Shown here: positions 8,424 through 48,124 of the stretch, in pieces
Layout: the number at the start of each line of letters is the position of its first letter
Position numbering within the stretch: position 1 is the first letter of the stretch
From: Candidatus Neomarinimicrobiota bacterium
GTDB taxonomy: Bacteria > Fidelibacterota > Marinisomatia > Marinisomatales > TCS55
Length of the DNA stretch: 64,000 bases
Direction: 5' to 3'
Assembly: GCA_018651745.1 (NCBI GenBank)
Contig: JABIDL010000041.1
Location: 1 to 64,000, forward strand
Program-made: the position numbers and the translations under genes
The notes under the pieces: generated by a model
Told to the model about the DNA's origin: nothing
Databases searched by the model: none
Seen by the model: only the letters and a program-made list of their open reading frames with translations

Positions 8424-11400
8424 ATGTGTAATTCAAAATACTATCTTTTTGCCACCACACTTATCGTAAGCGCTGCTTTCTTAACGCCGGGGAGAGCCCA
8501 GCTAAAATCCTTAGAAACCGAGGATGTCCAAATTATTTATACAAGCCCACTGCATAAATATCTTATACCCCAACTTGTAAGCACATTCACCAATTCTTAC
8601 AATTTCCATAGGAATATGTTTGATTATACACCCACAGAGAATATTACAATCCTAATGCAGGATTTTGGGGACTTTGGTCATGGTGGCGCAGATGCACTTC
8701 CAACAAACAACGTCAATATCGGGATTGGACCCTTTAATTATGTTTATGAAACAATGCCCGCCAGCGAACGAATGAATTGGCTTATGCATCATGAGTTGAC
8801 GCATATTGTGACCACAGATATGCCAAACAATGTTGATAGGTTTTGGCGCGGGCTTTTTCGCGGAAAGGTATCCACCTCCATTGACGATCCTATTTCGATT
8901 ATGTATAGTTACCTCACCAATCCAAGAAGGTATGCCCCCCGCTGGTATCACGAAGGCTCGGCAGTTTTTATGGAATCTTGGATGGCAAATACAAAAGGAC
9001 GCGTTTTTGGTGCTTACGATGAAATGGTCTTCCGAACTCGCGTAAGAGCTAATGCTACAATATATGATATTGTAGGTCTTGAATCTGAAGGAAAAACAAC
9101 CGATTTCCAAATTGGTGTCAATTCCTATCTTTATGGCACGCGATTTATTTGCTATGCCGCAAATACCTATGGTCCGGAAAAATTTGTGGAGTGGGTTTCA
9201 AGAAAAGATGGCAGTAAAGCATATTTTACATCCCAGTTTAAAAAAGTATTTGGGCTAAGCATTGACAAAGCATGGTCTGATTGGATTCAATGGGAGCGCG
9301 AATTCCAAACAAACAATCTTGAACTCGTTAGACAATATCCCACCACACAATTTCGTCCGGTTTCAAATATGTCGCTGGGGTCTGTCTCAAAAGGGTTTTA
9401 TGATGATAAAAATGGAAAAATTTATGTAGGCGTTTTTTATCCCGCCGAAGTGTCGCACATAGCTGCAATTGATGTAAAAACCGGCGCAATGGAAAAAGTG
9501 GCAGACATCCACGGCGCTGCAATCTTTTTTGTAATGTCTGCGGCGTTCGATCCGGATAAAGGCGATTTGTTTTTCACCATGGATAACGGACATTGGCGCG
9601 ATCTTTGGATGGTAAATGTTTATACCAAGGAATCTAAAAAGTTGTACGAAGATTTGAGAACCGGGCATTTAGCATTTAACCAAGCAGATAATTCACTATG
9701 GGGAATTCGGAATGCAGATGGATACTCAACGGTCATCCGACTAGAAGCGCCGTACGAGGAATTCAGCTCAATTAAAACGTTTGGTTACGGTGGCGCGTTT
9801 GAGGAATACGATGCTCACACAATGGATATTTCGCCAGACGGGGAAACCCTATCTATTGTAAAGGTGGATATGAATGGCATTCACCGGCTTACGCATGTTT
9901 CCATGGAAAGCGCGATGTCCGGAGATTTTACAGGAAAACCAATCTTTGATTTTGATACAAGCGCACCCGAGAACTTTGTGTTCTCAAAAGATGGACGATA
10001 CCAATACGGATCCTCCTATTATTCAGGTGTTTCAAATATTTTTCGCTATGATGCGGCGGAAGACACAGTTGTTGCACTAAGCAATGCAGAAACCGGATTC
10101 TTCAACCCAATCCCAGTTTCCGATGATTCTTTAATTGTGCTACGATATACAAGCGACGGTTTTCGCCCGGTGATGATTCCTAATCAGGAAGTGGAAGATG
10201 TAAGCGCCGTTAATTTTCTTGGTTGGGATATTTATGACAAACATCCCGTTGTTCAGACATGGGCGACAAAAGCCCCCACCAATCTTGATCTTGAAAAAAT
10301 TATAATTAAAGAAGGCGACTATAAACCAATATCAACCATGGGTCTTTCATCTATATATCCAGTTGTGCAGGCGTACCAAGACCCTAAATATCCTGCGTAT
10401 GGAGTTCGCATGAATTTTATGTCCACCCTTGGGCTGAATAAAGCCGACCTTACTATTACATATTCCCCACAAGATTCCATTCCAGATGACCAGAAAATTC
10501 ATGCGATTGGAACATTTAAATTGAATGTGATGACCGGTCCGCTGGCAGGTTCGTGGACATTTAGTGGCGGGAAAGACGCTTCAGATTTTTATGATCTTTT
10601 TGGTCCAACCATCAGCAGCCGAAAGGGGTCCTTTATCCGCACCAGTTTTTCAAAATCGATCAATAGCCATTTACCATTAAACATGGCGACAAGCATTGCA
10701 GTTTATGGTGGGTTTGAAGAGTTACCCGACTATCAGGACCAGCCGGCAGCATATGATAAATTTCTTTCAGGAAGTCTATCGTTTAGTCATTATAAAGCAC
10801 GCCGAACACTTGGGTCTATAGATCAGGAAAAAGGCAGGATTGCATCTTTCTCGTTATCTGGATCTTATCTTCCCCACTCTGCGGATACTCCTAAATTATA
10901 CACGAAAGGAACGCTAAATGCCTCGTATGGTGCACTGCTTCCACTTGTAGATCACCTCCCTTTATGGATTCGCGCTTCCGCAGGGAACTCCATGAGAATT
11001 TTAGGCGATAAAACAATTGCAGACGAAAACGCTTCATTCGGCTATTATTATTTTGGAGGCTTTGGCAATAACTGGATTGATTATCAAGGCATTAAACGTT
11101 ACCGGCAATATTATACATTTCCGGGCACAGGAATTACGAGCCTTGGTGGAACAAATTTTGTTAAAGTATTGGGTGAATTAATTCTACCCGCTCTCAGGTT
11201 CCGCCATGTGGGCACACCTTTTTTCTACCTGAACTGGGCTCGACTGTCACTATTCTCATCTGTTTTGCAAGGCGGAATTTTTGCAGGGAATCTGCTTAGC
11301 TATGAAAGCTCAACTTTTGGCGAGGAAATTACACGAGCTACAAACTTGGGCGCTCAAATTGATTTCCGACTTGTACTTTTTTCTTATATGAGATCAACAC

Positions 11401-11498
11401 TATCTGTGGGGTATGCTATTGCAAAGGCAGAGCTTAAAAACGGCTCAACTTTAGAGTATAGTCCGGAGCTGATGATATCCCTTCAGATATTGGATTGA
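8424..11498 (+). CDS. outer-membrane metallopeptidase-like protein with TolB-type propeller and beta-barrel
   Basis: Large exported protein of 1024 residues. A signal peptide spans about 1-25. Residues 30-280 resemble the peptidase MA-like gluzincin domain: zinc motif HELTH (123-127), and a downstream HEGSAVF block with Glu177 as likely third ligand. About 300-640 holds repeated strands in TolB/WD40-like propeller style (for example ISPDGETLSIV). About 680-1024 is rich in alternating aromatic strands and ends in a beta-strand, like an Omp85/surface-antigen barrel. This suggests an outer-membrane-anchored protease facing either side. The next gene starts one base after its stop (TGA, then GTG), so the two are translationally coupled. 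Confidence 0.8.
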   Translation: MCNSKYYLFATTLIVSAAFLTPGRAQLKSLETEDVQIIYTSPLHKYLIPQLVSTFTNSYNFHRNMFDYTPTENITILMQDFGDFGHGGADALPTNNVNIGIGPFNYVYETMPASERMNWLMHHELTHIVTTDMPNNVDRFWRGLFRGKVSTSIDDPISIMYSYLTNPRRYAPRWYHEGSAVFMESWMANTKGRVFGAYDEMVFRTRVRANATIYDIVGLESEGKTTDFQIGVNSYLYGTRFICYAANTYGPEKFVEWVSRKDGSKAYFTSQFKKVFGLSIDKAWSDWIQWEREFQTNNLELVRQYPTTQFRPVSNMSLGSVSKGFYDDKNGKIYVGVFYPAEVSHIAAIDVKTGAMEKVADIHGAAIFFVMSAAFDPDKGDLFFTMDNGHWRDLWMVNVYTKESKKLYEDLRTGHLAFNQADNSLWGIRNADGYSTVIRLEAPYEEFSSIKTFGYGGAFEEYDAHTMDISPDGETLSIVKVDMNGIHRLTHVSMESAMSGDFTGKPIFDFDTSAPENFVFSKDGRYQYGSSYYSGVSNIFRYDAAEDTVVALSNAETGFFNPIPVSDDSLIVLRYTSDGFRPVMIPNQEVEDVSAVNFLGWDIYDKHPVVQTWATKAPTNLDLEKIIIKEGDYKPISTMGLSSIYPVVQAYQDPKYPAYGVRMNFMSTLGLNKADLTITYSPQDSIPDDQKIHAIGTFKLNVMTGPLAGSWTFSGGKDASDFYDLFGPTISSRKGSFIRTSFSKSINSHLPLNMATSIAVYGGFEELPDYQDQPAAYDKFLSGSLSFSHYKARRTLGSIDQEKGRIASFSLSGSYLPHSADTPKLYTKGTLNASYGALLPLVDHLPLWIRASAGNSMRILGDKTIADENASFGYYYFGGFGNNWIDYQGIKRYRQYYTFPGTGITSLGGTNFVKVLGELILPALRFRHVGTPFFYLNWARLSLFSSVLQGGIFAGNLLSYESSTFGEEITRATNLGAQIDFRLVLFSYMRSTLSVGYAIAKAELKNGSTLEYSPELMISLQILD

Positions 11499-15285: not shown

Positions 15286-15840
15286 ATGAAAACTTCTTAT
15301 CCCATTCTTCTTTTTGTTGCGTTCATTTGGGTTTCCTGCGCTCCATCTCTCACTTCGCTCGCAGAAACCAACCCCCAAAAGGTGGTTGCAGTTCAGGACT
15401 CACTTTTATCGGCCAACCCAAATGATAAAATTATAAAAATAGCGCTTGTTACAGCCCACCTTAATATAGCACAATCTTCCAAGTCTCCGGAAAATTCTTA
15501 TCGCAATGCACTGAATTTGGATCCAAATAATGTTGAGGCAATATATCACCTTTCTATGATTGAAGGGCATCAGCTATTTAAAAAGGGAGACGAGTCGTCG
15601 CTTTGGGAATCGTTGGAATCGTATGCCCATTCTGCTGCGTTAATTGATTCGCTTGGAGAAGCTTTTTATTGGATGGGAAGAGTGTACGAAAAAAAAGACA
15701 ATCAAGATTTTGAGTTAATTATTGAATCATATCAAAAAGCAATTTCCCGAGAACTTTCACATCGCCTTCGGAAGGAGGCAATGCAACATTTATCTAGAAC
15801 TAAATCCCGGGAAAAAACATACAAAGATTTCTGGAAATAA
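15286..15840 (+). CDS. TPR-type lipoprotein
   Basis: Exported protein of 184 residues with a signal peptide ending in a lipobox (WVSC, Cys18). The mature part is helical and reads as two or three tetratricopeptide repeats (NALNLDPNNVEAIYHLSM, AFYWMGRVYEKKDN). It likely sits on the inner leaflet of the outer membrane as a scaffold. It starts 17 bases after the hydroxylase stop, and is separated from the motor operon by a weak terminator-like element and a strong promoter, so it may be only a neighbour of that operon. Confidence 0.8.
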   Translation: MKTSYPILLFVAFIWVSCAPSLTSLAETNPQKVVAVQDSLLSANPNDKIIKIALVTAHLNIAQSSKSPENSYRNALNLDPNNVEAIYHLSMIEGHQLFKKGDESSLWESLESYAHSAALIDSLGEAFYWMGRVYEKKDNQDFELIIESYQKAISRELSHRLRKEAMQHLSRTKSREKTYKDFWK

Positions 15841-15910: not shown

Positions 15911-15939
15911 TTGACACCTTAGCATAGTAGAAGTAAAAT
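15911..15939 (+). promoter_or_regulatory. consensus sigma-70 promoter of the motor operon
   Basis: A perfect -35 box TTGACA (15911-15916), an exact 17-base spacer and a -10 box TAAAAT (15934-15939). Transcription would start near 15946, giving a leader of about 50 bases before the ATG at 15997. This is the best promoter match in the window and suggests steady, strong expression. Confidence 0.8.
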
Positions 15940-15996
15940 TAGCTGTACTTGGTTAGCTAAATAATAGCTTTCCAAATCAATCCGAGGTAATTGTAA

Positions 15997-17163
15997 ATGA
16001 GTAAAACAAACTTTGTAAAAGCGGCAATTTTATGTCCTTTACTTCTCACGATATTTGTATCGGGCCTTCAGGCAAAGGACGAATATGAAATATCCGGAAA
16101 CATTGTGGGCGACGATGAAGAAAAAGTCACCGAAACAACGGTTTTATTATTAAAAGAAGACGGTTCAGAATCCCAGCGAACGGAATCATCTAAAAAACGT
16201 TTTGGTATGGGAGGTGGGGGTTTTTCGTTTGAAGATGTCCTTCCCGGAGAATATTCTATTAAAATAGACGCAGGTGCGCAAGGGACAGCAAACGTACCGG
16301 TATCAGTTGTGGATGACGATGTCGATTTAGGAGATGTGATACTTTCATCTGACGAGCCTAAGCCGATTGCTCAAAAAGAAAAAGCCGAAGATGTTTCCGA
16401 CCAGCCTGTTGAGCAGCCTGAAGAAGTTTCGGGGTCGGATAAAGATTATGTTATAAATGAACTGAATTTTGAAGTCAAAAAGCTCAACGCTGAAATCAAG
16501 CATTTAAATAATGAAATGGAAGATCTCAAAGCGTTAAGCAAAATGTGGATTAATCCCCTTGCAATTTATTCAAAAGAAATTATACTTAAGAATGGTAGCA
16601 CAGTTTTTGGAAAAATTGTGTATCAAGATGAAGAAACTCTAAAAGTAGAAACTCTTGTGGGTTATCTAATAATAAAACGTGAAAATGTAGTTCGTATTAT
16701 TGAAAATGTGGTGACAGAGGAATCCCAAGAGTATGTTCCTGAACAAATACGGGATAGTTATTCTCCACCACCAATGCCGAAGCTGGCCGAGCCTCAATAT
16801 ACATCGGGTAGCTTAAGTAGAGATGCCGCAAAGCAATATTCGGCCAATTGTGTTTTAGTTGGAAACATCAGCGAGAAGAAAGATAAACAAGGGAATTATA
16901 TTTTTACCGGTGAAGTAAAAAATATTGGAGGTCGACGCTCTGATTTTGTAAAGGTTGATTTTGTTTTTAGGAAAAACTGGAGTGGAGAAACTAAAACATT
17001 AACAACATTTGTTCGTGGTGCCTACCACACATTTGAATCCGGTATCACGACTGATGCCACTTTATTACCTGGAGCTTCGGGTGGATTTGAACTTTATGTT
17101 CCACACTCATTCGGGTCATTTATTGGGTATTCTTATATTATTGATTGGGAGGAATACGAATAA
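15997..17163 (+). CDS. secreted envelope protein with carboxypeptidase-like, coiled-coil and FxLYD-like regions; first gene of the motor operon
   Basis: 388 residues with an N-terminal signal peptide (about 1-27). Residues 30-110 resemble a carboxypeptidase-regulatory/Ig-like fold (ending PGEYSIKIDAG). An acidic linker and a short coiled coil (about 147-178) follow. A small beta unit at about 192-230 (NGSTVFGKIVYQDEETLKV) and a C-terminal FxLYD-like domain (about 285-385) close the protein. I cannot name it. It starts the seven-gene unit that contains motA, motB, fliF-like and fliG; its stop codon overlaps the next start (TAATG). It is a plausible periplasmic adaptor of the motor. Confidence 0.75.
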   Translation: MSKTNFVKAAILCPLLLTIFVSGLQAKDEYEISGNIVGDDEEKVTETTVLLLKEDGSESQRTESSKKRFGMGGGGFSFEDVLPGEYSIKIDAGAQGTANVPVSVVDDDVDLGDVILSSDEPKPIAQKEKAEDVSDQPVEQPEEVSGSDKDYVINELNFEVKKLNAEIKHLNNEMEDLKALSKMWINPLAIYSKEIILKNGSTVFGKIVYQDEETLKVETLVGYLIIKRENVVRIIENVVTEESQEYVPEQIRDSYSPPPMPKLAEPQYTSGSLSRDAAKQYSANCVLVGNISEKKDKQGNYIFTGEVKNIGGRRSDFVKVDFVFRKNWSGETKTLTTFVRGAYHTFESGITTDATLLPGASGGFELYVPHSFGSFIGYSYIIDWEEYE

Positions 17164-18014
17164 TGGATTTACGATCCGAGGTCATTTCCCATCCATGGAT
17201 TCAATTGCTGAGTATCTTCGTGTTGTTTTTCACCATTTCAGTGAGCTCTGCCCAAAACCAAGAATCAATTTCAGACATCTTTTTTCTAGATCTTGGAATT
17301 GTAATTGAGCCGTCAGATGGTAGCGAATCCTATTCTCGGGTTGTTGCAAGAACATCGGACGAAGTAAAATTCAGAGTAAAAAAAATTCAAAGCGGGTCTG
17401 TGTATATGGCATCGTCGAAAGAAATGATGAAAACATTAGATAGCATTCAGGAAAAAGTTTCTTCTTTGGATCATTCCATTAGGAATGATATTTTGTCTCT
17501 CAAACAAGAGAACAATGAATTAAAAGAATTAATTGCCGAACTCAAAGATTCTTTTCTTAGTCCAAAACCACTCCAAGGTGCAATAACGAGGTCTGTGTCC
17601 CCATCTAAAAATGTTTTGTTTAAAACAAAAGCGAAGTTTAATACATCTATTTATATGTCGGGCGTTTTTGCTTACCAGAGAGAAGATTACGACACCGCGT
17701 TAGAACATTTTTCATCTTTGAATTTGGATTTAGCACCACCACGCACAGCGGAAAATATTATGTATTGGATGGCAGACTCCTATTTACAAATGGACCAATA
17801 TCAGAATGCGCTCCAAATTCTTGAAGAATTATTAACCCGTCCCGGTTTAAATAGAGAGGCAGATGCATTAGTACAAAAAGGATTAGTGTATCGGAAACTT
17901 GGGCGCGAGGCTGAGGCGCTTAGTGCTTTTTCTGCAATTGTAACCCACCATCCAACAAGTGAATACGCAAAGCTTGCTGGGTTGGAATTGGCAAAGGCAG
18001 AGGCAATCAAATGA
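17163..18014 (+). CDS. periplasmic coiled-coil and TPR protein (CpoB/YbgF-like layout)
   Basis: 283 residues from the ATG at 17163, which shares one base with the preceding stop; a longer open frame from 17145 is less likely. A signal peptide or anchor spans about 15-35. A coiled coil lies at about 95-135 (LDSIQEKVSSLDHSI and KQENNELKELIAEL), then TPR repeats from about 160 to the end (ALQILEELLTRPG, ADALVQKGLVYRKLG). The order coiled coil then TPR is that of CpoB/YbgF, a partner of the Tol motor, but I see no further identity. Overlaps the next gene by four bases (ATGA). Confidence 0.75.
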   Translation: MDLRSEVISHPWIQLLSIFVLFFTISVSSAQNQESISDIFFLDLGIVIEPSDGSESYSRVVARTSDEVKFRVKKIQSGSVYMASSKEMMKTLDSIQEKVSSLDHSIRNDILSLKQENNELKELIAELKDSFLSPKPLQGAITRSVSPSKNVLFKTKAKFNTSIYMSGVFAYQREDYDTALEHFSSLNLDLAPPRTAENIMYWMADSYLQMDQYQNALQILEELLTRPGLNREADALVQKGLVYRKLGREAEALSAFSAIVTHHPTSEYAKLAGLELAKAEAIK

Positions 18015-19366
18015 AAAAGTTTAGACTACTGCTCAGTGTTTTTCTGGTACTCGTCTTAACTGATTCCGCATCTAGTGTAACACGCGTTGCATATACAAGA
18101 CCCGGGCTGATGATGAAAATTCCTGCAAGTCGCGTTGGACAACTTCCATATTTATTTAGAGTTGGGTTTGGTTCAGAAATTCACAATTTTTCAAATTTTA
18201 ATTCTGTGAAGGGGGTTTATTTTGATATGGGCCTTGGGAAAAACTTTATTCTCGGTTTTTCTTCTTCACAAGGCGCTGATACAACCTCTTTGGCAAATTT
18301 AGATGTATCCACATATACGCCACCTGTAGAATTTGGATTTCATTTTCAACAAAGGGTTTATACATATAATAATGTTTCTTTATCAATTGGTATGCACGAT
18401 GTTGTTTTTGAAAATCAAGATAAAGGTGGACTAGCGCTAGACCCCGATCAGCTTTCATTTTTTGGTGTAGTTAGTAGCGAGAAACAACTCGGCACGTATG
18501 CCATGAGTACTTTTATTGGGTTCGGAACCGGCGGATTTGCCGCGCAGGATACTCTTTCGGCTCTTGATACATCCCAAACATCCGGACGCGGTGCCGGCGT
18601 GTTTGCGGGTTTTATTTTAAATACTCCCTTTATGCAAAATTGGGGAGGTATAGATCTTGTGGGTGAATTCGATGGAACGGGCATCAATGTGGGACTCCGC
18701 ATCCCCCTTACCTCGGATTATCGCTTGAACCTAGGGTTCACCCACATAGAAAAATTACCAGATTGGAATAAGCGGTATTGGAATGGTCACCCCGGATGGA
18801 CTATTGGCTTAGACATGTCGGTACCGCGAGGGCTTTCCAGGGCAGCTCCAATTGATGGACCGTCTCCATTAACTTCAGCATCTGTAGAGTATGGGACCCA
18901 ATTTGATTCAACCTTAATGGAAGCGGATTACGCTGTTCACTCTTTGCGGGATTCGATGAGCATGATGACCAATGAAATGCGAAATTTGATTATTCGCCTG
19001 TCTGCCATGGATCAAAAATCAAAATTTCTTGAAGACTCTTTATCTTCAATTAAACTTTCAAAAAATGTTGACGAACAACATATGAATGAAGCTATGCGAC
19101 ATTTATCTCGATCCCTAAGGTATTTTTATTCCGGCGATTATAGGGAAGCGCTTCAAGAAGTTGACCTCGCACTAGACCTGAGGCCAGATCTCGCATTGGC
19201 CTATGCTCGCAGAGGATCGATTTACTACAAGTTGGGAGACATTCAAAGAGCAACTATTAACTGGAATTTGGCTTTGCGATTAGACCCGGAGTATGATGAT
19301 GTAAGAAATGTGCTGAAGGCTCTTCATGAAAACCGTTTGAAATCCACTAGCTTCTTGGAGGATTAA
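18011..19366 (+). CDS. outer-membrane beta-barrel protein with C-terminal coiled-coil and TPR
   Basis: 451 residues. A signal peptide (about 1-22) is followed by about 270 residues of alternating strands rich in Gly and aromatic residues, read as a beta-barrel or barrel-like domain. A coiled coil follows at about 305-345, then a pair of TPR units (about 360-435; EALQEVDLALDLRPDLALAYARRG). The barrel would place the coiled coil and TPR in the periplasm, facing the peptidoglycan-binding part of MotB. Not recognised as a named family. It lies four bases into the preceding gene and seven bases before motA. Confidence 0.75.
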   Translation: MKKFRLLLSVFLVLVLTDSASSVTRVAYTRPGLMMKIPASRVGQLPYLFRVGFGSEIHNFSNFNSVKGVYFDMGLGKNFILGFSSSQGADTTSLANLDVSTYTPPVEFGFHFQQRVYTYNNVSLSIGMHDVVFENQDKGGLALDPDQLSFFGVVSSEKQLGTYAMSTFIGFGTGGFAAQDTLSALDTSQTSGRGAGVFAGFILNTPFMQNWGGIDLVGEFDGTGINVGLRIPLTSDYRLNLGFTHIEKLPDWNKRYWNGHPGWTIGLDMSVPRGLSRAAPIDGPSPLTSASVEYGTQFDSTLMEADYAVHSLRDSMSMMTNEMRNLIIRLSAMDQKSKFLEDSLSSIKLSKNVDEQHMNEAMRHLSRSLRYFYSGDYREALQEVDLALDLRPDLALAYARRGSIYYKLGDIQRATINWNLALRLDPEYDDVRNVLKALHENRLKSTSFLED

Positions 19367-19372
19367 TAATTT

Positions 19373-20155
19373 ATGGATATTGCAACAATAGTAGGTATTA
19401 TAATAGGCTTAGGTTCCATTTTTGGAGGGATTTTTATGGCCGCCTCAGCAGCTAATGCCAGCATGGCGGGGTTTATTTCTCCCTCAAGTTTTGCAATTGT
19501 ATTCGGAGGGATGGTAGCCTCTGTTTCGGTTGCATTTCCCCTTTCGGATGTAATGAAGTTGGGTGCAGCAATGGGCGCAGTATTTAAAGGTGGAAAATTA
19601 AAATTAGGCGATGTTGTAGATGATGCAGTCGAGGCTGCGGACGTCGGTCGAAAAGGAGCTGCTGATCTTGAGAAAGCTGTGGAAGGAATTAGAAACCCAT
19701 TTTTTAGGGACGGAGTTCAAATGGTGGTTGATGGATATTCCTTGGATGAATTAACAGAAATTTTAGAAACACGGATTGAATACAGAGAAGTTCGTGAAAA
19801 AACTCAGGTTGGATTATTTAAGTCAATGGGTAACATGGCTCCGGCTTGGGGAATGATCGGGACCCTGATTGGTTTAGTAATTATGCTTTCTGGTTTTGGT
19901 GGTGAAGGAGGCGCTGACGCATTAGGCCCTGGAATGTCTGCCGCACTAATTACCACTTTTTATGGTGCTGTATTTGCGAACTTATTTTTTCTTCCGATGA
20001 GTGAAAAACTAGATACCCGGACCAGTTTTACTAGTACACTTCAAGCAATGCTTGTAGAGGCATCAAGGCTTATTCACCAAAAGAAACACCCTTTAATTGT
20101 TCGCGAAAAACTGAATTCATTTATTCCACCAAAGGAATGGAAATCACCCGAGTAG
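19373..20155 (+). CDS. motA: flagellar-type stator protein MotA
   Basis: Inner-membrane stator subunit that, with MotB, turns ion flow into torque. 260 residues, within the family range of about 250-295. Four membrane helices are visible (about 3-22, 30-52, 150-172, 182-205). The conserved proline helix is seen as MAPAWGMIGTLIGLVIML. The large cytoplasmic loop between helices 2 and 3 carries the charged segment (GIRNPFFRDGVQMVVDGY) that meets FliG. The resemblance is to true MotA/PomA rather than ExbB/TolQ. Placed before motB and in the same unit as fliG, as expected for a working stator-rotor pair. Confidence 0.93.
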   Translation: MDIATIVGIIIGLGSIFGGIFMAASAANASMAGFISPSSFAIVFGGMVASVSVAFPLSDVMKLGAAMGAVFKGGKLKLGDVVDDAVEAADVGRKGAADLEKAVEGIRNPFFRDGVQMVVDGYSLDELTEILETRIEYREVREKTQVGLFKSMGNMAPAWGMIGTLIGLVIMLSGFGGEGGADALGPGMSAALITTFYGAVFANLFFLPMSEKLDTRTSFTSTLQAMLVEASRLIHQKKHPLIVREKLNSFIPPKEWKSPE

Positions 20156-20160
20156 ATTAA

Positions 20161-20952
20161 ATGGCAAAAACGTCAAAAGAAAAAAAAGAGTACAAAAAAG
20201 GAATTCAAAAGGGAAAAACTTTAGTCGACGAAGGATTGCCGGGATGGTTTGGAACCTTTGCAGATATGATGACTTTGTTGTTTGCTTTCTTTGTTTTGTT
20301 GGCAGCGATTTCAACAATTGATCCTGTGAAGCTTATGGAAATGGCCAATTCAACGGGGAAATCACTTGGAACTAAAATTAAAAAAGACAATGCAGCATCA
20401 AATTTGGCGGACGTAAAAGATAATTTAGAAGAAATGATTGAAGAATTGGAAAAAGAATCAGAAGGAAGCCCACCTGTGGAAATTACAACAGGGCCAAAGG
20501 GTGTCACTTTAGAAATCAGCGGTGATTTTAGTTTTGGGTCTGGTAGCGCAGATTTAAAAGATGATTTACAAAATCTTTTAAGAGACCATGTGGTTCCGCA
20601 GATTAAAAACTCTATTTTTCAAATAGAGGTATCTGGGCATACTGACAGCGATATTCTTCCTAAAAAATTTCACGATAGATTCCCAAGTAATTGGGAGCTT
20701 GCATCGTCTCGCGCATCTGCTGTTGTTCGAGAATCCATAGCTCTTGGTGTAGATCCAACGCGCCTAATTGCAACTGGCTATGCACATTGGGCACCACGAG
20801 ACAAAGACCCCATGATGGAATTAAACTCGGAAACAGTAAAAACATTTAATGCTAGTCCAGAGAAAAAAGCAAGAAACAGACGAGTAGAAATCACATTTTT
20901 AAAGCCAGCTCACCACTCAACAAAATTTGTTGAACAAGCGGGACCTGGTTAA
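20161..20952 (+). CDS. motB: flagellar-type stator protein MotB with OmpA peptidoglycan-binding domain
   Basis: 263 residues. A basic cytoplasmic N-terminus leads to one membrane helix (about 31-50) with the ion-binding Asp35 in TFADMMTLLFAFFVLL, matching the MotB consensus. A plug/linker helix region (about 60-105) precedes the OmpA-like domain (about 120-250), with GHTD (159-162) and SNWELASSRA (176-185) for binding peptidoglycan. All parts needed for an active stator are present. H+ or Na+ use cannot be decided from this. Starts five bases after the motA stop. Confidence 0.94.
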   Translation: MAKTSKEKKEYKKGIQKGKTLVDEGLPGWFGTFADMMTLLFAFFVLLAAISTIDPVKLMEMANSTGKSLGTKIKKDNAASNLADVKDNLEEMIEELEKESEGSPPVEITTGPKGVTLEISGDFSFGSGSADLKDDLQNLLRDHVVPQIKNSIFQIEVSGHTDSDILPKKFHDRFPSNWELASSRASAVVRESIALGVDPTRLIATGYAHWAPRDKDPMMELNSETVKTFNASPEKKARNRRVEITFLKPAHHSTKFVEQAGPG

Positions 20953-20982
20953 TATTTACAGGAAATTAATAAGGAGATTATT

Positions 20983-22521
20983 ATGATGAAGAGGCTTAAG
21001 AATCATCCAATTTTATGGATGGCTGTCCTCTGTTTGGGAATTCTCGGAGCCCAAGAGGGATCTGGCTATTTAGCACAAAAACTAATGGTTGAAAACGATC
21101 TGCGGGCAAGAATCACCGATGCTTTGACTAAAGTTATTGATGAAAAAAAATATGTTGTTGATGTAAGCGTAGAGCTAGAATTAACGAGGTCGGTTGAAGA
21201 GCAGTTTACGATAATTACAGGAGAAGAAAATTCTTCTCCAGCACCAAACAGGCTTGGTGCGATTGCTGAAGATATCGAAGCAGAATCTAATACATCTTCC
21301 CAATCTATATCAGGAGTTGGTCTTCCGATACCGGGGTTTGATTTTGAGGTGGACCCAGAACCATCTGCACCCATTGCAGATAATGTTGAAGAAGAATATG
21401 AGGTGATAGAACAAAAACCTGCGGATAAACAGCACCAATCCAGAACGCATATTGAGACTCGCCCATCAGTTGCCAGCGTTAAAGAAATGGATATTTCTAT
21501 CATTCTCCAGGAAGGCGCATCTCCGGAGTTAATTGAAAATATCCGGCAAGTTGTAATGATTGCCGCACGATTTAATCGTGCGCGCGGTGATGTGCTCAGT
21601 ATTATGACCGCATCTTTTAAAGAACGCAGGGATGAAAAAACAGCAGAGCATATATTATTAAAAAATATCGCAGAAAAATTGGAATCGCTTGAAGAACAAA
21701 ATGCTTCAGATTCAGAGAATGAAGAAACATGGCAATCCGAATTAGATCGTTATAAAGAAAACGAAGCGCAACGCAGAGAAGAAGATAGGCTTTATTTTCA
21801 ATCCAAGTTAGCAGAGCTCGAAATGGCTGCACGTTCTCGAGCTTATGAAAACGAAAAAACAGATATTTTACAAGACGATTCTATCAAAATTCAATCTTTA
21901 AATGATGAAATACAAGAGCTTCGTAAGATTGTTTCTGCAACACCCGATTCAGGACTTCAAGCACAAATGAGCCTCAAAGAGGGTGAAAAAGAAAAACTAG
22001 ATAATCAAATTGCGGAAAAAATGAATATGTTGGAGTCTATCCAATCTGACCTCGACAGAAAATCTGGAGGTGGTTCAACCATGATGGTAGTATTTATGTC
22101 CATCCTTGGTGCGCTTGTTATCGTACTTGTAGTTGTTTTGGTTATGGTGCTTATGGGAAATAAGAATAAACAACAGGCATTTCCTCCGCCACCGCCATGG
22201 ATGTATCCACCCCGATCCCGTAAAAAAAAAGATGACACAGTAAATGGTGAATCAAACAAAACTGTTATCCCTACAACAGAATCTCAACCGAAAGCAGTAC
22301 AAGCTGTTGAAGATCCAAGTGTTATTCAGAGTGAAATTAATGATATGAAGCAAGCGGTAGTTTCTATGAGCGTTGGCCAACCATCCACAGCGACTAAAAT
22401 TGTTCAGGACTGGATCGTAACCGAAGCTCCCGCACCACTAGAACCTGAAGTTGTTCAGCCCGAAGAGTCTTCTGAAGAAGAGGATGGTGGCAAGAAAAAG
22501 AAGAAAAAAAAGAAAAAGTAG
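20983..22521 (+). CDS. FliF-like MS-ring protein, shortened and with a coiled-coil insertion
   Basis: 512 residues with an AAGGAG site six bases upstream. A signal peptide or first helix covers about 8-24. Residues 38-78 (ARITDALTKVIDEKKYVVDV) and 166-212 (ENIRQVVMIAARFNRARGDV) resemble the two halves of the FliF RBM3/YscJ-FliF C-terminal domain, split by a Pro/Glu-rich loop (80-160) where FliF has its beta-collar. A long coiled coil (about 220-360), one strong membrane helix (367-391) and a cytoplasmic tail follow. Residues 452-479 (VGQPSTATKIVQDWI) match the style of the FliF tail that binds FliG. RBM1 and RBM2 are missing. The tail ends in nine lysines. Family call is inference; the fliG neighbour supports it strongly. 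Confidence 0.75.
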   Translation: MMKRLKNHPILWMAVLCLGILGAQEGSGYLAQKLMVENDLRARITDALTKVIDEKKYVVDVSVELELTRSVEEQFTIITGEENSSPAPNRLGAIAEDIEAESNTSSQSISGVGLPIPGFDFEVDPEPSAPIADNVEEEYEVIEQKPADKQHQSRTHIETRPSVASVKEMDISIILQEGASPELIENIRQVVMIAARFNRARGDVLSIMTASFKERRDEKTAEHILLKNIAEKLESLEEQNASDSENEETWQSELDRYKENEAQRREEDRLYFQSKLAELEMAARSRAYENEKTDILQDDSIKIQSLNDEIQELRKIVSATPDSGLQAQMSLKEGEKEKLDNQIAEKMNMLESIQSDLDRKSGGGSTMMVVFMSILGALVIVLVVVLVMVLMGNKNKQQAFPPPPPWMYPPRSRKKKDDTVNGESNKTVIPTTESQPKAVQAVEDPSVIQSEINDMKQAVVSMSVGQPSTATKIVQDWIVTEAPAPLEPEVVQPEESSEEEDGGKKKKKKKKK

Positions 22522-22531
22522 AGGATAGGAA

Positions 22532-23464
22532 ATGATTACCGACTATAACCAGTTATCCGGCCTTCAAAAAGTTGCCATCCTGTTTTCGACTTTAGGCGAA
22601 AGCTTGGCGCTTACATTGGTAAAGGATTTAAGTAAGACAGAAATTCGAAAGATTAGGGCAACAATTAGAGAAATGGACGATGTTATTTTCTCTGTTAAAA
22701 AACGAGTTATGGAGGATTTTTACTTCAATTTTGTCAGCGAAAAATTTGAAGAAGATGAAAGTGATGACCCTAAAAAACCATTTGAATTTTTAACAGAAAT
22801 AACAGATGAACAGCTCGTTGCCTTACTAAGTACTGAACCACCACGCGTAATTGCTATTATATTAGCACAAGTTCCAAATGAACGGAAAACTGCGGTAATG
22901 AGTAGACTTAATGCAGATGTTAGAAACTCTGTGCTTAGAAATATGGGCAATTTAAAAGATGTTCCACTTCAGGCGATTGTAAATATTGCCACCCGACTTA
23001 GGAAAAATTCCCAAACATTACCCAAAACTGTTGAATTCTCCAGAGGTGGTGGAAAAGAAGTAGCAGATTTGCTGGGCGAAATGAGCCCAGAAGAAGAAAA
23101 GCAATTTTTAGAAGCGCTTATCATTGACGATCCAGAACTCGCAGAGGAAGTAAAAAAATATCACATAACCTTTGAGGCAATTTTTGAACTTTTTCCAGAT
23201 AATATTATAAGAGATTTAATGAATTCTGTTGAACTGGATGTGGTTGCACTTGCGCTGAAAGGAATGTCTGAAGATATCAGTAATCGTGTAATTGAAAACC
23301 TTCCTCAGAAAAAACAGGCAATGTATGAACCGATTGAAGGTGCAGTTTCAAAACGAGAGATTGATGGTGCCCGAAAGACGATTGTACAAGCTGCCAAACA
23401 AATGGAGAAAGACGGATCATATAATTTAGAAGACTTCGTAGGTGGATCAGAAATGATTGAGTAA
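22532..23464 (+). CDS. fliG: flagellar motor switch protein FliG
   Basis: 310 residues (E. coli FliG 331) with all three FliG domains. FliG-N: residues 7-70 (LSGLQKVAILFSTLGESLA), the part that binds FliF. FliG-M: about 90-160 with the EHPQ motif as EPPR (102-105) and LPxxxR-like repeats. FliG-C: 211-300 (TFEAIFELFPDNIIRDLM, then ALKGMSEDISNRVIENLP), the torque domain. The torque helix keeps some charge (Glu266, Lys274, Arg275) but the second of the paired Asp residues is Pro267. Last gene of the operon, ten bases after the fliF-like stop. No fliM, fliN or export gene follows. Confidence 0.93.
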   Translation: MITDYNQLSGLQKVAILFSTLGESLALTLVKDLSKTEIRKIRATIREMDDVIFSVKKRVMEDFYFNFVSEKFEEDESDDPKKPFEFLTEITDEQLVALLSTEPPRVIAIILAQVPNERKTAVMSRLNADVRNSVLRNMGNLKDVPLQAIVNIATRLRKNSQTLPKTVEFSRGGGKEVADLLGEMSPEEEKQFLEALIIDDPELAEEVKKYHITFEAIFELFPDNIIRDLMNSVELDVVALALKGMSEDISNRVIENLPQKKQAMYEPIEGAVSKREIDGARKTIVQAAKQMEKDGSYNLEDFVGGSEMIE

Positions 23465-23492
23465 AACTTAAATCAGTTCCTTCTAGAACAGG

Positions 23493-23541
23493 AAAGCCCC
23501 GTTTTTATCACAAGATAATTGAAGATAAAACGGGGCTTTTT
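23493..23541 (+). terminator. strong intrinsic terminator of the motor operon
   Basis: A 13-bp perfect stem (23493-23505 with 23527-23539) around a 21-base loop ends in a T run on the plus strand, 28 bases after the fliG stop. It reaches the stop codon of the convergent ppdK gene and may also slow that transcript, though its T tract on the minus strand is short. Confidence 0.88.
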
Positions 23542-42353: not shown

Positions 42354-44444
42354 ATGAATGGAATGAAGGGAATCGTTTGCGGTTGGATTTATCCAATTAT
42401 CGTTTTCGTTGTGATGGTCTCACTAACGACAGCCGGTGATATGTACATTATTTCTGGATATGATTTGGACAAAGATGGATTCGGAGAATTCATCCTTATT
42501 GATCAAGGTGCAAATCCAACCGTCCGATATATTGAGCTTACGAAAAAGATGAACCACGTGAATTTATGGTCTAAATCCTTAGATGATTTTCCGTTCATTT
42601 TGAGCCATGTTGAAATGATTTCCAATAGTGATTCAACCACAACTTTTCTTGTATTAAGCGGCCCCAATTTGAACGTAAGATCTGATAATAAATTAATTTC
42701 CCTTGAGGGATTTCAATGGAAAGATTCCACATTTTCTGACCTTGGCGCGCCTCTTATCTCTGGGAAAAAGAAGGGCGATCGTCTTAGACTAGAGCACATT
42801 TCATATTCTTCAGAATTAAATCTCGTAGCCATTTCTGTGAATAGCCCCACCCGGGAAGTTTTGATTTATCAACCCGAATTATATTCCACAACTTTTGCAT
42901 CAGTTGGGATTATCGATTCTCTTTTAATGAAAAACGGTCTCGGAAAAATAATGTGTGAATGGTTTGGCACTGAAAATAACCCCCTTTTAGCTGTATTTTC
43001 GTTGGAATCTGATTCTATTAGTGTGGATGTGTTTAATAACAATTCGCTGGACTATCCGGAATTCTCAGAAGTTTTTCCGATTCCAGAATTGTCCCTTTAT
43101 CCCTTTTCAATCAAGGTGCGAGATTTGTCCGGAGATGGATTTAATGATATATTGTTACCGTTTACAAATGATGATATTTATTCAATTACAATTGAAGACT
43201 CTTCGCTGAAATTTTTCAAGACATACCTTAGCCAGTCAGGACTCTTTACGCTACCACCCACCGCGAATGAATCAGAAATCAATACATTTCTAGAAGCTCA
43301 AATCAACGCAGGCTTGATTGATTCAGATTTTTTAATGATTCTTGAGAGCGAATTTCCGGATTCTGTTTCTCTGGCATTTATAGACACTATATCTGTTGGT
43401 GACACAGTTTTAATTTCAGCGATGCCTGATTCATCATCAGGGTTTTACAGTTTTAGATGGACCCGTCACCAACCGGACTCCGCATATTTTGATCCCCATT
43501 CTGGTTCAATCCGGTGGATTCCTAGCGATGAAGATATTGGGCATCATATTTTTTCTTATTCATTTAAAATCCGCGTCAATGAATCACTTATTGAAGATGT
43601 TGATGAATTTGGGGATCGTCACCAAATAATTCCTGTATTGATTCCGGGCGACAGTACTTGGGGTTTGGTTGTTGTTGATTCAACCCAATGGTATCCGCCT
43701 CCCGTTATACATCCACCATTCAAGAAAAAAATATTTTCAATGGCCGTTCGAACGAATGAGTATGATTCTACTGCCTATACTTTCAAAGGTAAAGCATCTT
43801 ACCAATTAGAGACCGAAGTGCTTCCGGGGCGAACAGGTTTACACCATTCCATTTCTACCAATATTGAATCCTTACCACGCGAAGATGAAATTTCATTTTC
43901 CCTTCGTTCGTCTTCAGCCGATACTATGCCCCAATTAAAGTTATCCGTTATTCACGATTTAAATTCAAATGTGCTTTCTGTAACACTTAATCCTGCATTA
44001 GATTCCATTCCTCAAACGTTTTATCCGGGAGATTGGGATCGAGACCTTTTAGGTTTTCCTGAATATTTGTTTCACGGGTTTGAGCAAGATTTAATTATGG
44101 ATTCATTAGAAAATTCAATCGTTTTTCATGAAGGAGAATCTGCAATACAAACAGATTCTTTATCTCAATGGATTGAGGTTATTGGACCATCAAGACCAGA
44201 CCATGTTGTAAGGATTTTATTTAATGCTGGCGACTTATATGAAATTAGAGGAACAGTTAGATTCCGAGATGATGGCTCTGCAACCACAATATCAGAATTC
44301 AGGTTTTCTGATGAATTTTATTCTACACATATAATAACAAATCTTATTCATTCGGATGATGATTTCACTAGAGCGATACCACTTCCATCGGTAAAATTGA
44401 AAAACAAAATTCCTGCATTAAATTCGGAAGTAATAAACCCATGA
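42354..44444 (+). CDS. secreted FG-GAP-like protein, paralogue of the next gene
   Basis: 696 residues with a signal peptide (about 1-26). Asp-rich loops of FG-GAP/VCBS type are visible (DLDKDGFGEF near the start and DLSGDGFNDILLPF at about 258), usual in beta-propeller surface proteins that bind calcium. Later there is a putative Ig-like block (FRWTRHQPDSAYFDP and SIRWIP). The same blocks in the same order occur in the downstream protein, so the two are paralogues. The last 200 residues differ and have no membrane helix. Overlaps the next gene by four bases. Function unknown; perhaps adhesion or ligand binding. Confidence 0.75.
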   Translation: MNGMKGIVCGWIYPIIVFVVMVSLTTAGDMYIISGYDLDKDGFGEFILIDQGANPTVRYIELTKKMNHVNLWSKSLDDFPFILSHVEMISNSDSTTTFLVLSGPNLNVRSDNKLISLEGFQWKDSTFSDLGAPLISGKKKGDRLRLEHISYSSELNLVAISVNSPTREVLIYQPELYSTTFASVGIIDSLLMKNGLGKIMCEWFGTENNPLLAVFSLESDSISVDVFNNNSLDYPEFSEVFPIPELSLYPFSIKVRDLSGDGFNDILLPFTNDDIYSITIEDSSLKFFKTYLSQSGLFTLPPTANESEINTFLEAQINAGLIDSDFLMILESEFPDSVSLAFIDTISVGDTVLISAMPDSSSGFYSFRWTRHQPDSAYFDPHSGSIRWIPSDEDIGHHIFSYSFKIRVNESLIEDVDEFGDRHQIIPVLIPGDSTWGLVVVDSTQWYPPPVIHPPFKKKIFSMAVRTNEYDSTAYTFKGKASYQLETEVLPGRTGLHHSISTNIESLPREDEISFSLRSSSADTMPQLKLSVIHDLNSNVLSVTLNPALDSIPQTFYPGDWDRDLLGFPEYLFHGFEQDLIMDSLENSIVFHEGESAIQTDSLSQWIEVIGPSRPDHVVRILFNAGDLYEIRGTVRFRDDGSATTISEFRFSDEFYSTHIITNLIHSDDDFTRAIPLPSVKLKNKIPALNSEVINP

Positions 44445-47400
44445 TAAATGCCCGAAATATATCATCTTATCTTTTGCTAATGTTTTTTGTATCAGCGCAG
44501 GATTTGAAAATTACTTACATGGATGGAACCTATGATTTAGACGAGGATCAACTCCATGAATTTGTAACAATAGAAACAGGATTTGTAGAGGATGCCGCTG
44601 TTTCGGTTGTCCGTTATTATGAAATAGACGAAGAAGGCTACCAGCGTCTAAATTGGGAATTAGAAACGCCGCATGGCCTTCTTGGTAGTTTTGTGGGGGT
44701 AAAAGTTGGAGATTTGAATGGCGACGGCGTTCCTGAACTTGTAACTGTGTTAAACGTCTCTGATGTTGAAGAGGAAGAAATTCTTCAGCCGATTGTATTC
44801 TATTATTCCTGGGATAAAGATGGGTTTACAGAAAATCCGGGTGGAACATTTAATTTATCATCTGGGGAAAGGTTTTTGCGTTGCCACAATCTTGAATTGG
44901 TTAATGTGGATGGAGATTCAGATCAAGAATTAGCCGTTTCTCTTGGTAGCCCGGTTCGAGGAATTAAACTATTAGATATTTCTGATGACGGATCCATTCG
45001 AGAATTAAAAGCATTGAGCCCGGAAGGTTTGAAATCTGGGATTGGTTTTGTGTATGTAGCATCTGTTGATAATGACCGAGATGGGTTTGATGAATTATTA
45101 ACATTCAGCCCGGAGGGAAGTATTTTGCGGGTTCAACCATTTTTTAATACAGGTGGCGAATTTTTATCCGGCGATCTCGTTGAGCAAGAAATCCAAGGAA
45201 TAGATGGTTTTTTGCCCTTTAGAATTTCTAAGACTGATTGGGATGCTGATGGTTTTAACGATGTATTGTTGCCTTTCCAAAGTGGACATGTTGTAGCGTT
45301 AACACCTTCAATCGGAATGGTGTCGGTATCCACATTGCCTGTAGATGGAGGGCCAATGTCGGACATGAATATCACAGATTTTAATCACGATGGATTTAAT
45401 GATATTTTGCTTGTGTCTGGAGAAATGAATATCCTTACTTTGGCGTATGGTACAAACGAAGGATTGATTAGTCCTGTAGAATATTTTACACTTGAAGCAG
45501 AACATGAAAACACTCAAGTATTTACATCACTACCTATAGAATTTCAGGGAGAATATTCTGGTTCCATTGTCGCCGCAGGCTGGGATGGAAGACAAACATC
45601 TGTATTTATTACTGACATTGGAAAAACCCCGGATATAGTTTCCCCTCCGCATAGCATTACAGAGTTAGATATTCGAGATCAGGAAGATATATTAAGTTTG
45701 TATCCAGAACTCAACCCGGATATAATTTTAGATTTTCCACGCACTCCCAAACCGCTTGAATCTGTGGGGCAACCTTTACCGGCAGGTGTGCTCCCGCGTC
45801 ACGTGTTACCTGTAAACCAATCGTTTGCTTACACCCTGCCAGAGGATGAGGCCACCCGGTTTTTCAGTTTTCGGTGGCTTGAACCTCCACCACGCGGAAT
45901 GTTTTTTCATTATGAGTCAAAATCAATTCGCTGGATTCCGGATGATTCCCAACTTGGGGCCTACCACATTTCTTATCATGTTGAAATGAAGGTGGGAGAA
46001 AATGTAAAGTTAGAAACCTCAAAAAACGACACTCTCTTAACCTATCAAATGATACCGGATTTAGAAGGATATGATGAGAAACTTTGGGTTTATGTAAACG
46101 ATTTACCAGCCTTTTTGAGCGAACCTTCTCGGACAGAATTTATAGCTAATTCCGAGTTTATTTATAAACCGCTCATTTTGGATAGAAATAGTGATGCCGA
46201 TTTGCGCTATGAATTAGAAGTAAAACCGGAAGGAATGCTAATTGATGGAACCAATACCATCCGATGGAAAACTGATAGTACACACGTAGATGTATATGAT
46301 GTCAGAATTATAGTATCGGACGGTTTTGATAGAGCTCTTCAAGAATTTCGTTTATTTGCCAGAGCGGGAATAAAAATCCTTTCTCAATCTGAAATTGAAA
46401 TCCAAGTTGAAAAACCCTATACCTACAAAGTGGAAGTATGGCGTCCCGATTTAAAATATCAAGTTGGTTATGAATTGATTGACCATCCGGAAGGAATGAT
46501 AATATCCGAAGAAGGAATGATTGCTTGGACGCCCTCTGTGTCCCAAATTGATACACAATCATATTTTATAGTTGCCAATCATGGTATGGCAAGAGATACG
46601 CAGTGGGTAAACCTATTTGTGAACCACCCACCGATTGTTGAAGAAGCCCCCCCCCTTATGAATGTGGTTAATTTGGGCGAAGATTTTGATTTTGAAATAA
46701 TGGCTCAAGATCCAAACGCAAATGATAAACTTATTTTTACTGCTGTAGAAATGCCGGAAGGAATGCGAATGGATCCATATACAGCACGAATCCACTGGGA
46801 GCCTAATTCCGATAATATTGACTTTTCCCATTTGAAAATTGAAATCACCGATGGTCGTGAGACGAAAATTGTAGAGTCAGACTTTTTTGTGAATGCCCCA
46901 ATCCGAATTGTTTCGCTACCTCCTATGGTTGGGTCAATGGATTCACCTTTTGAGTATCCAATTCTTATATCCGACCAAAACCGCGGTGCTTTGTTGCCAT
47001 ACTTGAATCCGATTCGTATTGATGATGTGGATCGCGTTAGGATTTATTCTGTCAATATATCTGATGATATTTACCGGGAGAATATTGATCGCTATATTCG
47101 AGATTGGGAGACAGCAGAAGCAGTGTATCTAATTGATCCTGAGAGTTTGGGCGAAGAAAATTTTGCAAGACTTAATCTTAAAAAATATGTTCCTTCTATA
47201 TTTTATGAGGACGATCGCCTAATCGTTATTATTGAAGCTCTTGACAAAAGAACGGTTTCGATTAAGGATATGCTATGGGAATTTTTTCAAGGGAGCAAGG
47301 GAGTACCGCCTCGCGTTATGGTTGAACGTATGAGCCCTTATAGATATTCCCTTTTAGATTTTCCGGATGGAATGGTTGTAGATGAATATTCAGGATCGAT

Positions 47401-48124
47401 ACGATGGACACCTGGAAAAAATCAGTTTGATATCCATCCTGTAAAAATCATTGTATCCGATGGCTATACAAGGGATGAGCAAATGTTTGATGTTTATATC
47501 AATTACCCTCCAATTATTGTATCCAATTCTCCGGTAGGTGGGATGGTGGAAGAAGTATTTAAATATCAAATTCGTGTGGAAGATAAAAACTCTGATGCTG
47601 AGTTAAAATATTCGCTACTAAAGGGCCCCCAAGGGATGCAGATCAGCGAACAGGGCAAAATTGTGTGGATACCCAAAACCGCCCAGATAAATAATAACTA
47701 CTTTACCGTAAAGGTAGAAGATGGTTACACAGAAGATATCCAGGAAAACAAATTATTCATTAATATTAATCCAACTATTATTTCAACGCCAAAGCCCGTT
47801 GCGCTCACTGGTCACGAATATCGCTATCGGATTATGGCTGAAGATTTAAATAGTGATAAAATCCAATTTCGCGCAATTAAACTTCCAAAATATTCAACAT
47901 TTAACAGAAAAACCGGTCTTTTTAGATGGAAACCTCGAGCCCGTCAACGCGGCCCAAATGACATTATTATTACGGCCATTGATGAGCGAGGAGCTACAAC
48001 AGTGCACGAAGTCCAAGTTCATGTCTTTGAAGATCCAAGCGCCCGGCAAATGGTTAATCGTGGGTGGCCGCTGTTGCTGACATTTGTTGGTGTTATGTTT
48101 GCTTGGGGAATGGCTCAGATTTAA
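44441..48124 (+). CDS. large FG-GAP and Ig/cadherin-like repeat protein with C-terminal membrane helix
   Basis: 1227 residues with a signal peptide. The first 330 residues carry about five Asp-rich FG-GAP loops (DLNGDGVPEL, DVDGDSDQEL family, DNDRDGFDEL, DWDADGFNDV, DFNHDGFNDI). From about 440 on there are at least six Ig/cadherin-like units with the recurring pattern PEGMxI followed by RWxP and a closing VSDG segment. A hydrophobic helix at the very end (WPLLLTFVGVMFAWGMA) would anchor the C-terminus in a membrane. It is likely a periplasm-spanning or surface structural protein. Co-transcribed with its paralogue just upstream. Confidence 0.78.
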   Translation: MINARNISSYLLLMFFVSAQDLKITYMDGTYDLDEDQLHEFVTIETGFVEDAAVSVVRYYEIDEEGYQRLNWELETPHGLLGSFVGVKVGDLNGDGVPELVTVLNVSDVEEEEILQPIVFYYSWDKDGFTENPGGTFNLSSGERFLRCHNLELVNVDGDSDQELAVSLGSPVRGIKLLDISDDGSIRELKALSPEGLKSGIGFVYVASVDNDRDGFDELLTFSPEGSILRVQPFFNTGGEFLSGDLVEQEIQGIDGFLPFRISKTDWDADGFNDVLLPFQSGHVVALTPSIGMVSVSTLPVDGGPMSDMNITDFNHDGFNDILLVSGEMNILTLAYGTNEGLISPVEYFTLEAEHENTQVFTSLPIEFQGEYSGSIVAAGWDGRQTSVFITDIGKTPDIVSPPHSITELDIRDQEDILSLYPELNPDIILDFPRTPKPLESVGQPLPAGVLPRHVLPVNQSFAYTLPEDEATRFFSFRWLEPPPRGMFFHYESKSIRWIPDDSQLGAYHISYHVEMKVGENVKLETSKNDTLLTYQMIPDLEGYDEKLWVYVNDLPAFLSEPSRTEFIANSEFIYKPLILDRNSDADLRYELEVKPEGMLIDGTNTIRWKTDSTHVDVYDVRIIVSDGFDRALQEFRLFARAGIKILSQSEIEIQVEKPYTYKVEVWRPDLKYQVGYELIDHPEGMIISEEGMIAWTPSVSQIDTQSYFIVANHGMARDTQWVNLFVNHPPIVEEAPPLMNVVNLGEDFDFEIMAQDPNANDKLIFTAVEMPEGMRMDPYTARIHWEPNSDNIDFSHLKIEITDGRETKIVESDFFVNAPIRIVSLPPMVGSMDSPFEYPILISDQNRGALLPYLNPIRIDDVDRVRIYSVNISDDIYRENIDRYIRDWETAEAVYLIDPESLGEENFARLNLKKYVPSIFYEDDRLIVIIEALDKRTVSIKDMLWEFFQGSKGVPPRVMVERMSPYRYSLLDFPDGMVVDEYSGSIRWTPGKNQFDIHPVKIIVSDGYTRDEQMFDVYINYPPIIVSNSPVGGMVEEVFKYQIRVEDKNSDAELKYSLLKGPQGMQISEQGKIVWIPKTAQINNNYFTVKVEDGYTEDIQENKLFININPTIISTPKPVALTGHEYRYRIMAEDLNSDKIQFRAIKLPKYSTFNRKTGLFRWKPRARQRGPNDIIITAIDERGATTVHEVQVHVFEDPSARQMVNRGWPLLLTFVGVMFAWGMAQI

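Follow-up and report, generated by a model that had tools for sequence, protein, structure and literature searches.

In the flagellar motor, the cytoplasmic tail of FliF binds FliG, and in the Agl-Glt gliding system of Myxococcus, a MotA/TolQ-like motor works together with TPR proteins and barrels in the outer membrane. The GldLM motor of Flavobacterium drives SprB movement as well as SprB secretion (PMC8986121). A 2025 survey noted that 11% of non-motile species have rotor proteins but no filament, without settling what these proteins do (PMC12199754), and a 2025 stator phylogeny, in the part of it consulted here, lists no FliF/FliG-linked non-flagellar stators (PMC12505986). Here we report on a seven-gene operon that codes for MotA, MotB, a FliF-like protein, FliG, and three envelope proteins (A, B, and C), located in a 64,000-nucleotide stretch (the window) of contig JABIDL010000041.1 from a Candidatus Marinimicrobia metagenome-assembled genome (MAG; assembly GCA_018651745.1). 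Its composition points to a so far undescribed rotary machine in the envelope, found across a phylum of uncultured, mostly marine bacteria; a literature search covering few preprints and subscription papers returned no published description of such a system. From computed gene content, gene order, domain folds, a FliF tail match, stator residues, and the absence of four flagellar families, we consider it fairly probable that the operon encodes a non-flagellar, sodium-driven, envelope-spanning rotary machine that would pass torque to an outer-membrane complex.

The source genome (1,863,596 bases in 43 contigs; 95.8% complete; G000 below) carries the operon at 15997-23464, with all seven genes on the + strand in the order A, B, C, MotA, MotB, FliF-like, and FliG, and with small overlaps or gaps of ~5 to 30 bp between them (Table 1). 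A preliminary description of this DNA had proposed seven closely spaced genes between one promoter and one terminator. The genes and the terminator were recovered where it had placed them, and none of 200 shuffles gave a hairpin as strong as that of the terminator (-25.7 kcal/mol; z -5.3). The promoter held up in part: the promoter-like site is the best of 18 in the region, with a perfect -35 box, but such sites are no more numerous there than in shuffles, and the site is supportive only.

Table 1. Features of the operon, with positions in the 64,000-nucleotide window
Feature	Position	Strand	Evidence or remarks
Promoter-like site TTGACA-17 bp-TAAAAT	15911..15939	+	11/12 consensus matches; start codon of A ~57 bp downstream
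Gene A, secreted protein	15997..17163	+	Carboxypeptidase-regulatory-like domain (N-terminal), coiled coil, strongly conserved C-terminal domains
Gene B, secreted coiled-coil-TPR protein	17145..18014	+	CpoB/YbgF-like layout; domain search
Gene C, outer-membrane beta barrel + helix + TPR (predicted)	18011..19366	+	AlphaFold2, PDB matches
MotA/PomA-type stator subunit	19373..20155	+	Pfam, residue alignment
MotB/PomB-type stator subunit	20161..20952	+	Asp35, plug, OmpA-type peptidoglycan-binding domain
FliF-like rotor protein	20983..22521	+	Apparent signal peptide, RBM3, predicted coiled-coil stalk, one transmembrane helix, cytoplasmic tail
RBM3 (S-ring/collar) domain of FliF-like protein, residues 48-212	21124..21618	+	Pfam, Foldseek
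Coiled-coil stalk (predicted), residues 218-361	21634..22065	+	Two helices, 102 + 38 residues, AlphaFold2
Transmembrane helix of FliF-like protein, residues 365-392	22075..22158	+	AlphaFold2; hydropathy peak 3.32 at residues 369-387
FliG-binding tail motif (by homology), residues 450-480, SVVSMSVGQP..AT.IV..W	22330..22422	+	hhalign
FliG	22532..23464	+	N, M, C domains
Intrinsic terminator hairpin GCCCCGTTTT...AAAACGGGGCTTTTT	23491..23541	+	Common to convergent PPDK gene

The four motor assignments of the preliminary description, including a MotB with Asp35 and a three-domain FliG, were borne out by Pfam matches above curated cut-offs. These were MotA_ExbB for MotA (4e-27), MotB_plug (5e-14) and OmpA for MotB, the N, M, and C domains for FliG (8e-16, 8e-14, and 2e-21), and YscJ_FliF_C for the FliF-like protein (1.1e-8), in which only the C-terminal FliF domain is matched. 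FliG scored 121 bits against the NCBIfam equivalog TIGR00207, under the 226.7-bit cut-off, and the NCBIfam score of MotA was also well under its equivalog cut-off. Since these scores are so far under the cut-offs, both proteins are diverged from their flagellar orthologues.

Motor residues were surveyed in 68 MotA, 71 MotB, and 74 FliG operon copies, with 12 flagellar FliG as a yardstick and E. coli numbering. The torque and ion residues of MotA are kept (R90, P173, and P222 in 68/68; E98 in 67/68), and Asp35 of MotB, the equivalent of the ion-binding D32 of E. coli, is Asp in 71 of 71 relatives. K264 of FliG is kept in 74/74, and all 74 copies have Lys or Arg at the R281 position. In contrast, the FliM-binding residues H126, Q128, and R160, kept in 11 to 12 of the 12 flagellar FliG, are lost in every operon FliG (one copy has Lys and one has His at the R160 position). 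Three threonines of PomA (T158, T185, and T186) are reported to set sodium selectivity and to be conserved in all sodium stators (PMC10374538). All three are present in 68/68 operon MotA, compared with Ala, Gly, and Thr in E. coli, and judging by these residues the driving ion of the operon stator is probably sodium. The flagellar MotA of relatives carry the same three threonines; the sodium filter is therefore no mark specific to the operon.

Both the sequence and the modeled fold indicate that the FliF-like protein is a genuine FliF derivative. When its AlphaFold2 model was compared with the PDB by Foldseek, 18 of 18 matches at E ≤ 0.001 were to flagellar MS-ring FliF, in the RBM3/collar region, and the next match, SpoIIIAG, was far weaker; together with the three FliG domains above cut-off, this agrees with the folds proposed in the preliminary description. 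A profile of 57 FliF-like proteins searched against PDB sequences likewise ranked flagellar FliF first (E 1.9e-6). RBM1 and RBM2 are missing, as no YscJ_FliF N-terminal Pfam match occurs among the families listed for the 57 members, and RBM3 begins ~25 residues past the apparent signal peptide. The N-termini, judged by eye, resemble cleavable signal peptides with small residues before Gln, whereas flagellar FliF has a transmembrane helix at residues 21 to 39; hydropathy gives the FliF-like protein one clear transmembrane helix. The most conserved stretch of the tail, SVVSMSVGQP..AT.IVKEWL, contains W477, which is invariant along with E451 in the 57 sequences, and AlphaFold2 puts two helices at the motif. 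Aligned with hhalign, this tail matches the FliG-binding tail of flagellar FliF (probability 86.7%, E 4.4e-6; ≤6.4% for 15 control profiles and ≤4.0% for 40 column shuffles), which points to homology between the two.

Between RBM3 and the membrane lies the predicted coiled-coil stalk. In the AlphaFold2 model, confidence is high for the coiled coil (predicted local distance difference test [pLDDT] mostly 77 to 97 in the stalk) and for the ring domain and poor for the linkers. RBM3 and the transmembrane helix are 50 to 215 residues apart in the 57 sequences (median, 170), and a straight 140-residue helix would span 21 nm. An extended stalk is favored because a hairpin could not return the shorter second helix to the membrane; in such a form, a stalk of ~20 nm may lift the ring from the membrane toward the outer membrane. 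Some genomes hold two FliF-like copies (G114:C7 and C52; G066:C1 and C14), which could mean two motors per cell or duplicates in the assemblies.

The preliminary description had called the gene set a complete stator-rotor set. The motor parts are present, but the rotor is incomplete, as it is without FliM/FliN, RBM1, RBM2, and the FliM site of FliG. That description had also seen no flagellar genes in the window, and for FlhA, FliP, FliM/FliN (FliMN_C), and flagellin (Flagellin_N), this absence extends to the whole G000 assembly. The same four families and CheW had no match in G000 or in two same-genus genomes (for flagellin, G081 and G082), and a full flagellar gene set elsewhere in the source genome is thus contradicted by the lack of export gate, FliM/FliN, and flagellin. 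As controls, the flagellar models matched flagellated relatives and E. coli. No rod or hook genes (FlgE and others) were recognized in the 64-kb window; no search aimed at them was made. Without an export gate, no filament would be built, and without FliM/FliN and CheW the motor would not be switchable in the known way. Control by chemotaxis was rejected on the absence of CheW from G000 and 58 other relatives.

The operon is conserved far beyond chance. The order A-(B)-C-MotA-MotB-FliF-FliG is kept in 71 of 71 loci (median gap, 5 bp), a set from which recognized duplicates were removed and in which some loci may still be one assembly under two collections. The variants seen were a doubled B, a missing B, two apparent single-gene splits (C or FliF), and truncations at contig ends. 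Compared with a same-genus relative, the ratio of nonsynonymous to synonymous substitution rates (dN/dS) was 0.014 to 0.078 for six genes (all but the FliF-like gene), with dS near saturation. Among 245 genomes of the phylum, the FliF-like gene was found in 157, FliG_C in 172, and FliP in 38; the FliF-like gene occurs without FliP in 127 genomes and together with it in 30.

Considering that the phylum includes flagellated members and that flagellar remnants are known elsewhere (PMC12199754), the operon might be the chance-kept remnant of a lost flagellum. We rejected this explanation as extremely improbable. The flagellated relatives examined carry both sets, with a separate classical cluster that has its own FliF, FliG, MotA, and MotB, and in the FliG tree (no outgroup) a single branch with 100/100 support splits operon FliG from flagellar FliG, E. 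coli included. Gene order and selection also contradict a remnant, and the operon holds specific new parts (A, C, and the stalk). Two flagellated genomes (L129 in G104 and L130 in G103) have FlhA, FliP, FliM/FliN, and flagellin but FliG of the operon type only; their flagellar fliG may be missing from the assembly, because both clusters are cut by contig ends.

Named close relatives of the operon FliG are nearly all from Candidatus Marinimicrobia/Neomarinimicrobiota, apart from two labeled FCB group bacterium and bacterium. One lineage within the phylum (f9; 24 small genomes of 0.4 to 1.0 Mb) has no FliF-like, FliG, or A match, which makes an essential role in the envelope less likely. Two f9 members tested keep SprA, and the machine therefore looks dispensable in streamlined cells. 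Among 81 genomes outside the phylum, covered by one search for A, only G325 has A-C-MotA, and G245 has a partial A-like match only. The G325 genes (G325:C16; L155:4193-7224) stand in the order A, C, MotA, without B, up to a contig end. Pantothenate genes adjoin them as they adjoin the operon in Marinimicrobia family f16, so G325 may represent a sister lineage.

Two of the three envelope proteins were recognized much as the preliminary description had them, C as a barrel-TPR protein by AlphaFold2 and PDB matches and B as a coiled-coil-TPR protein by domain search. The AlphaFold2 model of C has a barrel of ~12 strands, followed by a 75-residue helix and then TPR (pLDDT 83; predicted template modeling score [pTM] 0.53); both the barrel and the TPR have matches in the PDB, and C is predicted to be an outer-membrane barrel. 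Protein A has a lipobox in distant families, which makes it an apparent lipoprotein there, and the fold of A had no PDB match better than chance. Mean column identity over the phylum is 44% for A and 50% for C, compared with 29% for the FliF-like protein. Beyond the operon copy, G000 and most relatives have at least one weaker A match per genome, and A seems to have domain-sharing paralogues. Gene B has a TTG start that overlaps gene A, with an in-frame ATG at 17163, and is duplicated in distant families and missing in part of one family. Its match to tol_pal_ybgF (1.5e-11) is under the family cut-off.

The CpoB/YbgF layout of B, together with a barrel in the outer membrane and an apparent lipoprotein, would also suit a Tol-Pal- or TonB-like device, in which the stator pulls on or gates the outer membrane with no continuous rotation of a ring. 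We regard this as rather improbable. Tol and TonB motors have TolR/ExbD and no FliF or FliG, whereas in the operon proteins R90 and E98 of MotA, K264 and R281 of FliG, and the FliF tail are kept. The operon MotA matches flagellar stator families at 1e-51 versus 0.0017 for TolQ, and TolA, TolB, and Pal had no match among the operon proteins. Loss of the operon in streamlined genomes also speaks against a housekeeping role in the envelope.

In the rotary machine that we propose instead, peptidoglycan-anchored MotA-MotB units would turn a FliG ring, which the FliF-like protein would hold by its cytoplasmic tail. This protein would pass the inner membrane once and continue as a periplasmic coiled-coil stalk of up to ~20 nm, with the RBM3 ring at its end. 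This ring may meet a complex of C, the (lipo)protein A, and the TPR protein B and pass torque or movement on to it, and the motor would be unswitched and one-way. The preliminary description had arrived at a non-flagellar rotary envelope machine, and the proposal is supported by what was found on both counts that could have contradicted it, namely the flagellar gene search and the folds of the FliF-like and FliG proteins; the load that is driven is something that we infer.

Several observations weigh against this machine. The ring, the stalk, and the contacts with C, like rotation, the sodium ion, and the task, are steps that we infer from the computed parts. The full FliF-like model has a pTM of 0.32, which leaves it uncertain how ring and stalk are placed relative to each other; in one distant FliF-like copy, the stalk measures only 50 residues. 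In FliG, the D288/D289 positions are changed or deleted in most copies and the R297 column has no Arg, which suggests that the rotor-stator interface is altered. In addition, the genes that flank the operon vary, and none linked to it codes for an adhesin or another cargo. Together with the lack of a switch complex and of CheW, the absence of a linked cargo gene could be read in favor of a static scaffold or mechanosensor, in which a FliF-FliG ring places or gates MotAB as a sensor of load or surface and makes no useful rotation. There is little likelihood of this, in our view, considering that the ion-channel and torque residues are kept and that the barrel and the long stalk suggest force transmission.

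The conserved neighbors of the operon are housekeeping genes only, plus a TPR protein that lies upstream (15286-15840), occurs in nearby families only, and is possibly accessory; it was not counted in the operon. Elsewhere in the window, a 1,227-aa protein with FG-GAP and Ig-like domains (44441-48124), probably a surface protein, adjoins a 696-aa protein without a Pfam match, and a 1,024-aa open reading frame without a Pfam match (8424-11498) is followed by a gene for a PrsW-type intramembrane protease.

The phylum seems to have a type IX system without its known motor. Of 61 genomes, 60 have a SprA match, the source genome included, and in 57 it scores above the curated cut-off; GldM was found in only 1 of the 61. 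That genome is not G000 and has 4% contamination, and its GldM is on a contig end. The SprA-type translocon of G000 is encoded at C38:1373-7069 (open frame of 2,074 aa). It is possible, if unlikely, that the operon powers type IX-like secretion in place of the GldL/GldM motor that the phylum seems to lack. However, SprA is kept in genomes without the operon (G033, G034, G049, and G056), and the operon therefore cannot be the sole power source of type IX secretion. The GldM model is also derived from Bacteroidota and may miss a divergent GldM, and the operon and SprA are on different contigs. Of the tasks considered for the rotary machine, the likeliest, which we put forward tentatively, is surface movement, in which proteins of the outer membrane or cell surface (adhesins, for example) would be moved. 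The loss in f9, SprA without GldM, and the lack of a switch would be consistent with a motor that turns one way and moves surface proteins that type IX secretion delivers.

A machine of this kind would give a concrete answer to why many non-motile genomes hold rotor proteins without filament genes. It would also present a torque generator separated from the flagellum, in which the parts for torque can be compared with those for switching and export. A previous study scored motility by fliG, fliM, and fliN, with two of the three required, in a set of MAGs that includes Marinimicrobia (PMC10359470). Our results suggest that in marine metagenomes fliG is an unsafe indicator of motility by flagella.

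Compared with known systems, the operon shares with the flagellar motor the stator type, the torque residues, a three-domain FliG, the RBM3 fold of FliF, and the match to the FliG-binding tail. It differs from that motor in having no FliM/FliN, export gate, or flagellin, and in a FliF-like protein that has an apparent signal peptide and a predicted coiled-coil stalk but not the RBM1/RBM2 of flagellar FliF; the operon motor is associated with TPR proteins and a barrel of the outer membrane, and some relatives have it alongside true flagella. GldLM of Bacteroidota is similar in that it is ion driven and conveys force through the periplasm to a complex in the outer membrane, but GldL/GldM has no FliF/FliG rotor, whereas torque in the operon machine would go via the FliG/FliF ring. 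The likeness to Agl-Glt lies in a MotA-type motor with TPR proteins and an outer-membrane barrel; Agl motors, however, are without a FliF/FliG rotor, and the operon proteins match Glt only as generic TPR (GltC, 0.028). B is likened to CpoB of Tol-Pal by layout, but the operon stators are MotAB rather than TolQR. The operon MotB matches ZorB models of Zorya (ZorAB) weakly (4.9e-14), and Zorya has neither FliF nor FliG; Zorya was rejected as an identity for the operon, with no ZorA match by PADLOC and no match to ZorC/D/E effectors among the seven proteins. The flagellar core, already in use in the flagellum and the injectisome, may have a third use in the operon, as a phylum-wide sodium-driven FliG/FliF rotor whose coiled-coil drive shaft crosses the periplasm and sets outer-membrane complexes in motion, be it for surface movement or for secretion; we see this wider claim as evenly balanced. 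The motor is homologous to that of the flagellum; in having outer-membrane parts and lacking an export gate, the whole machine would be a system of a different kind from the flagellum, as the injectisome also is.

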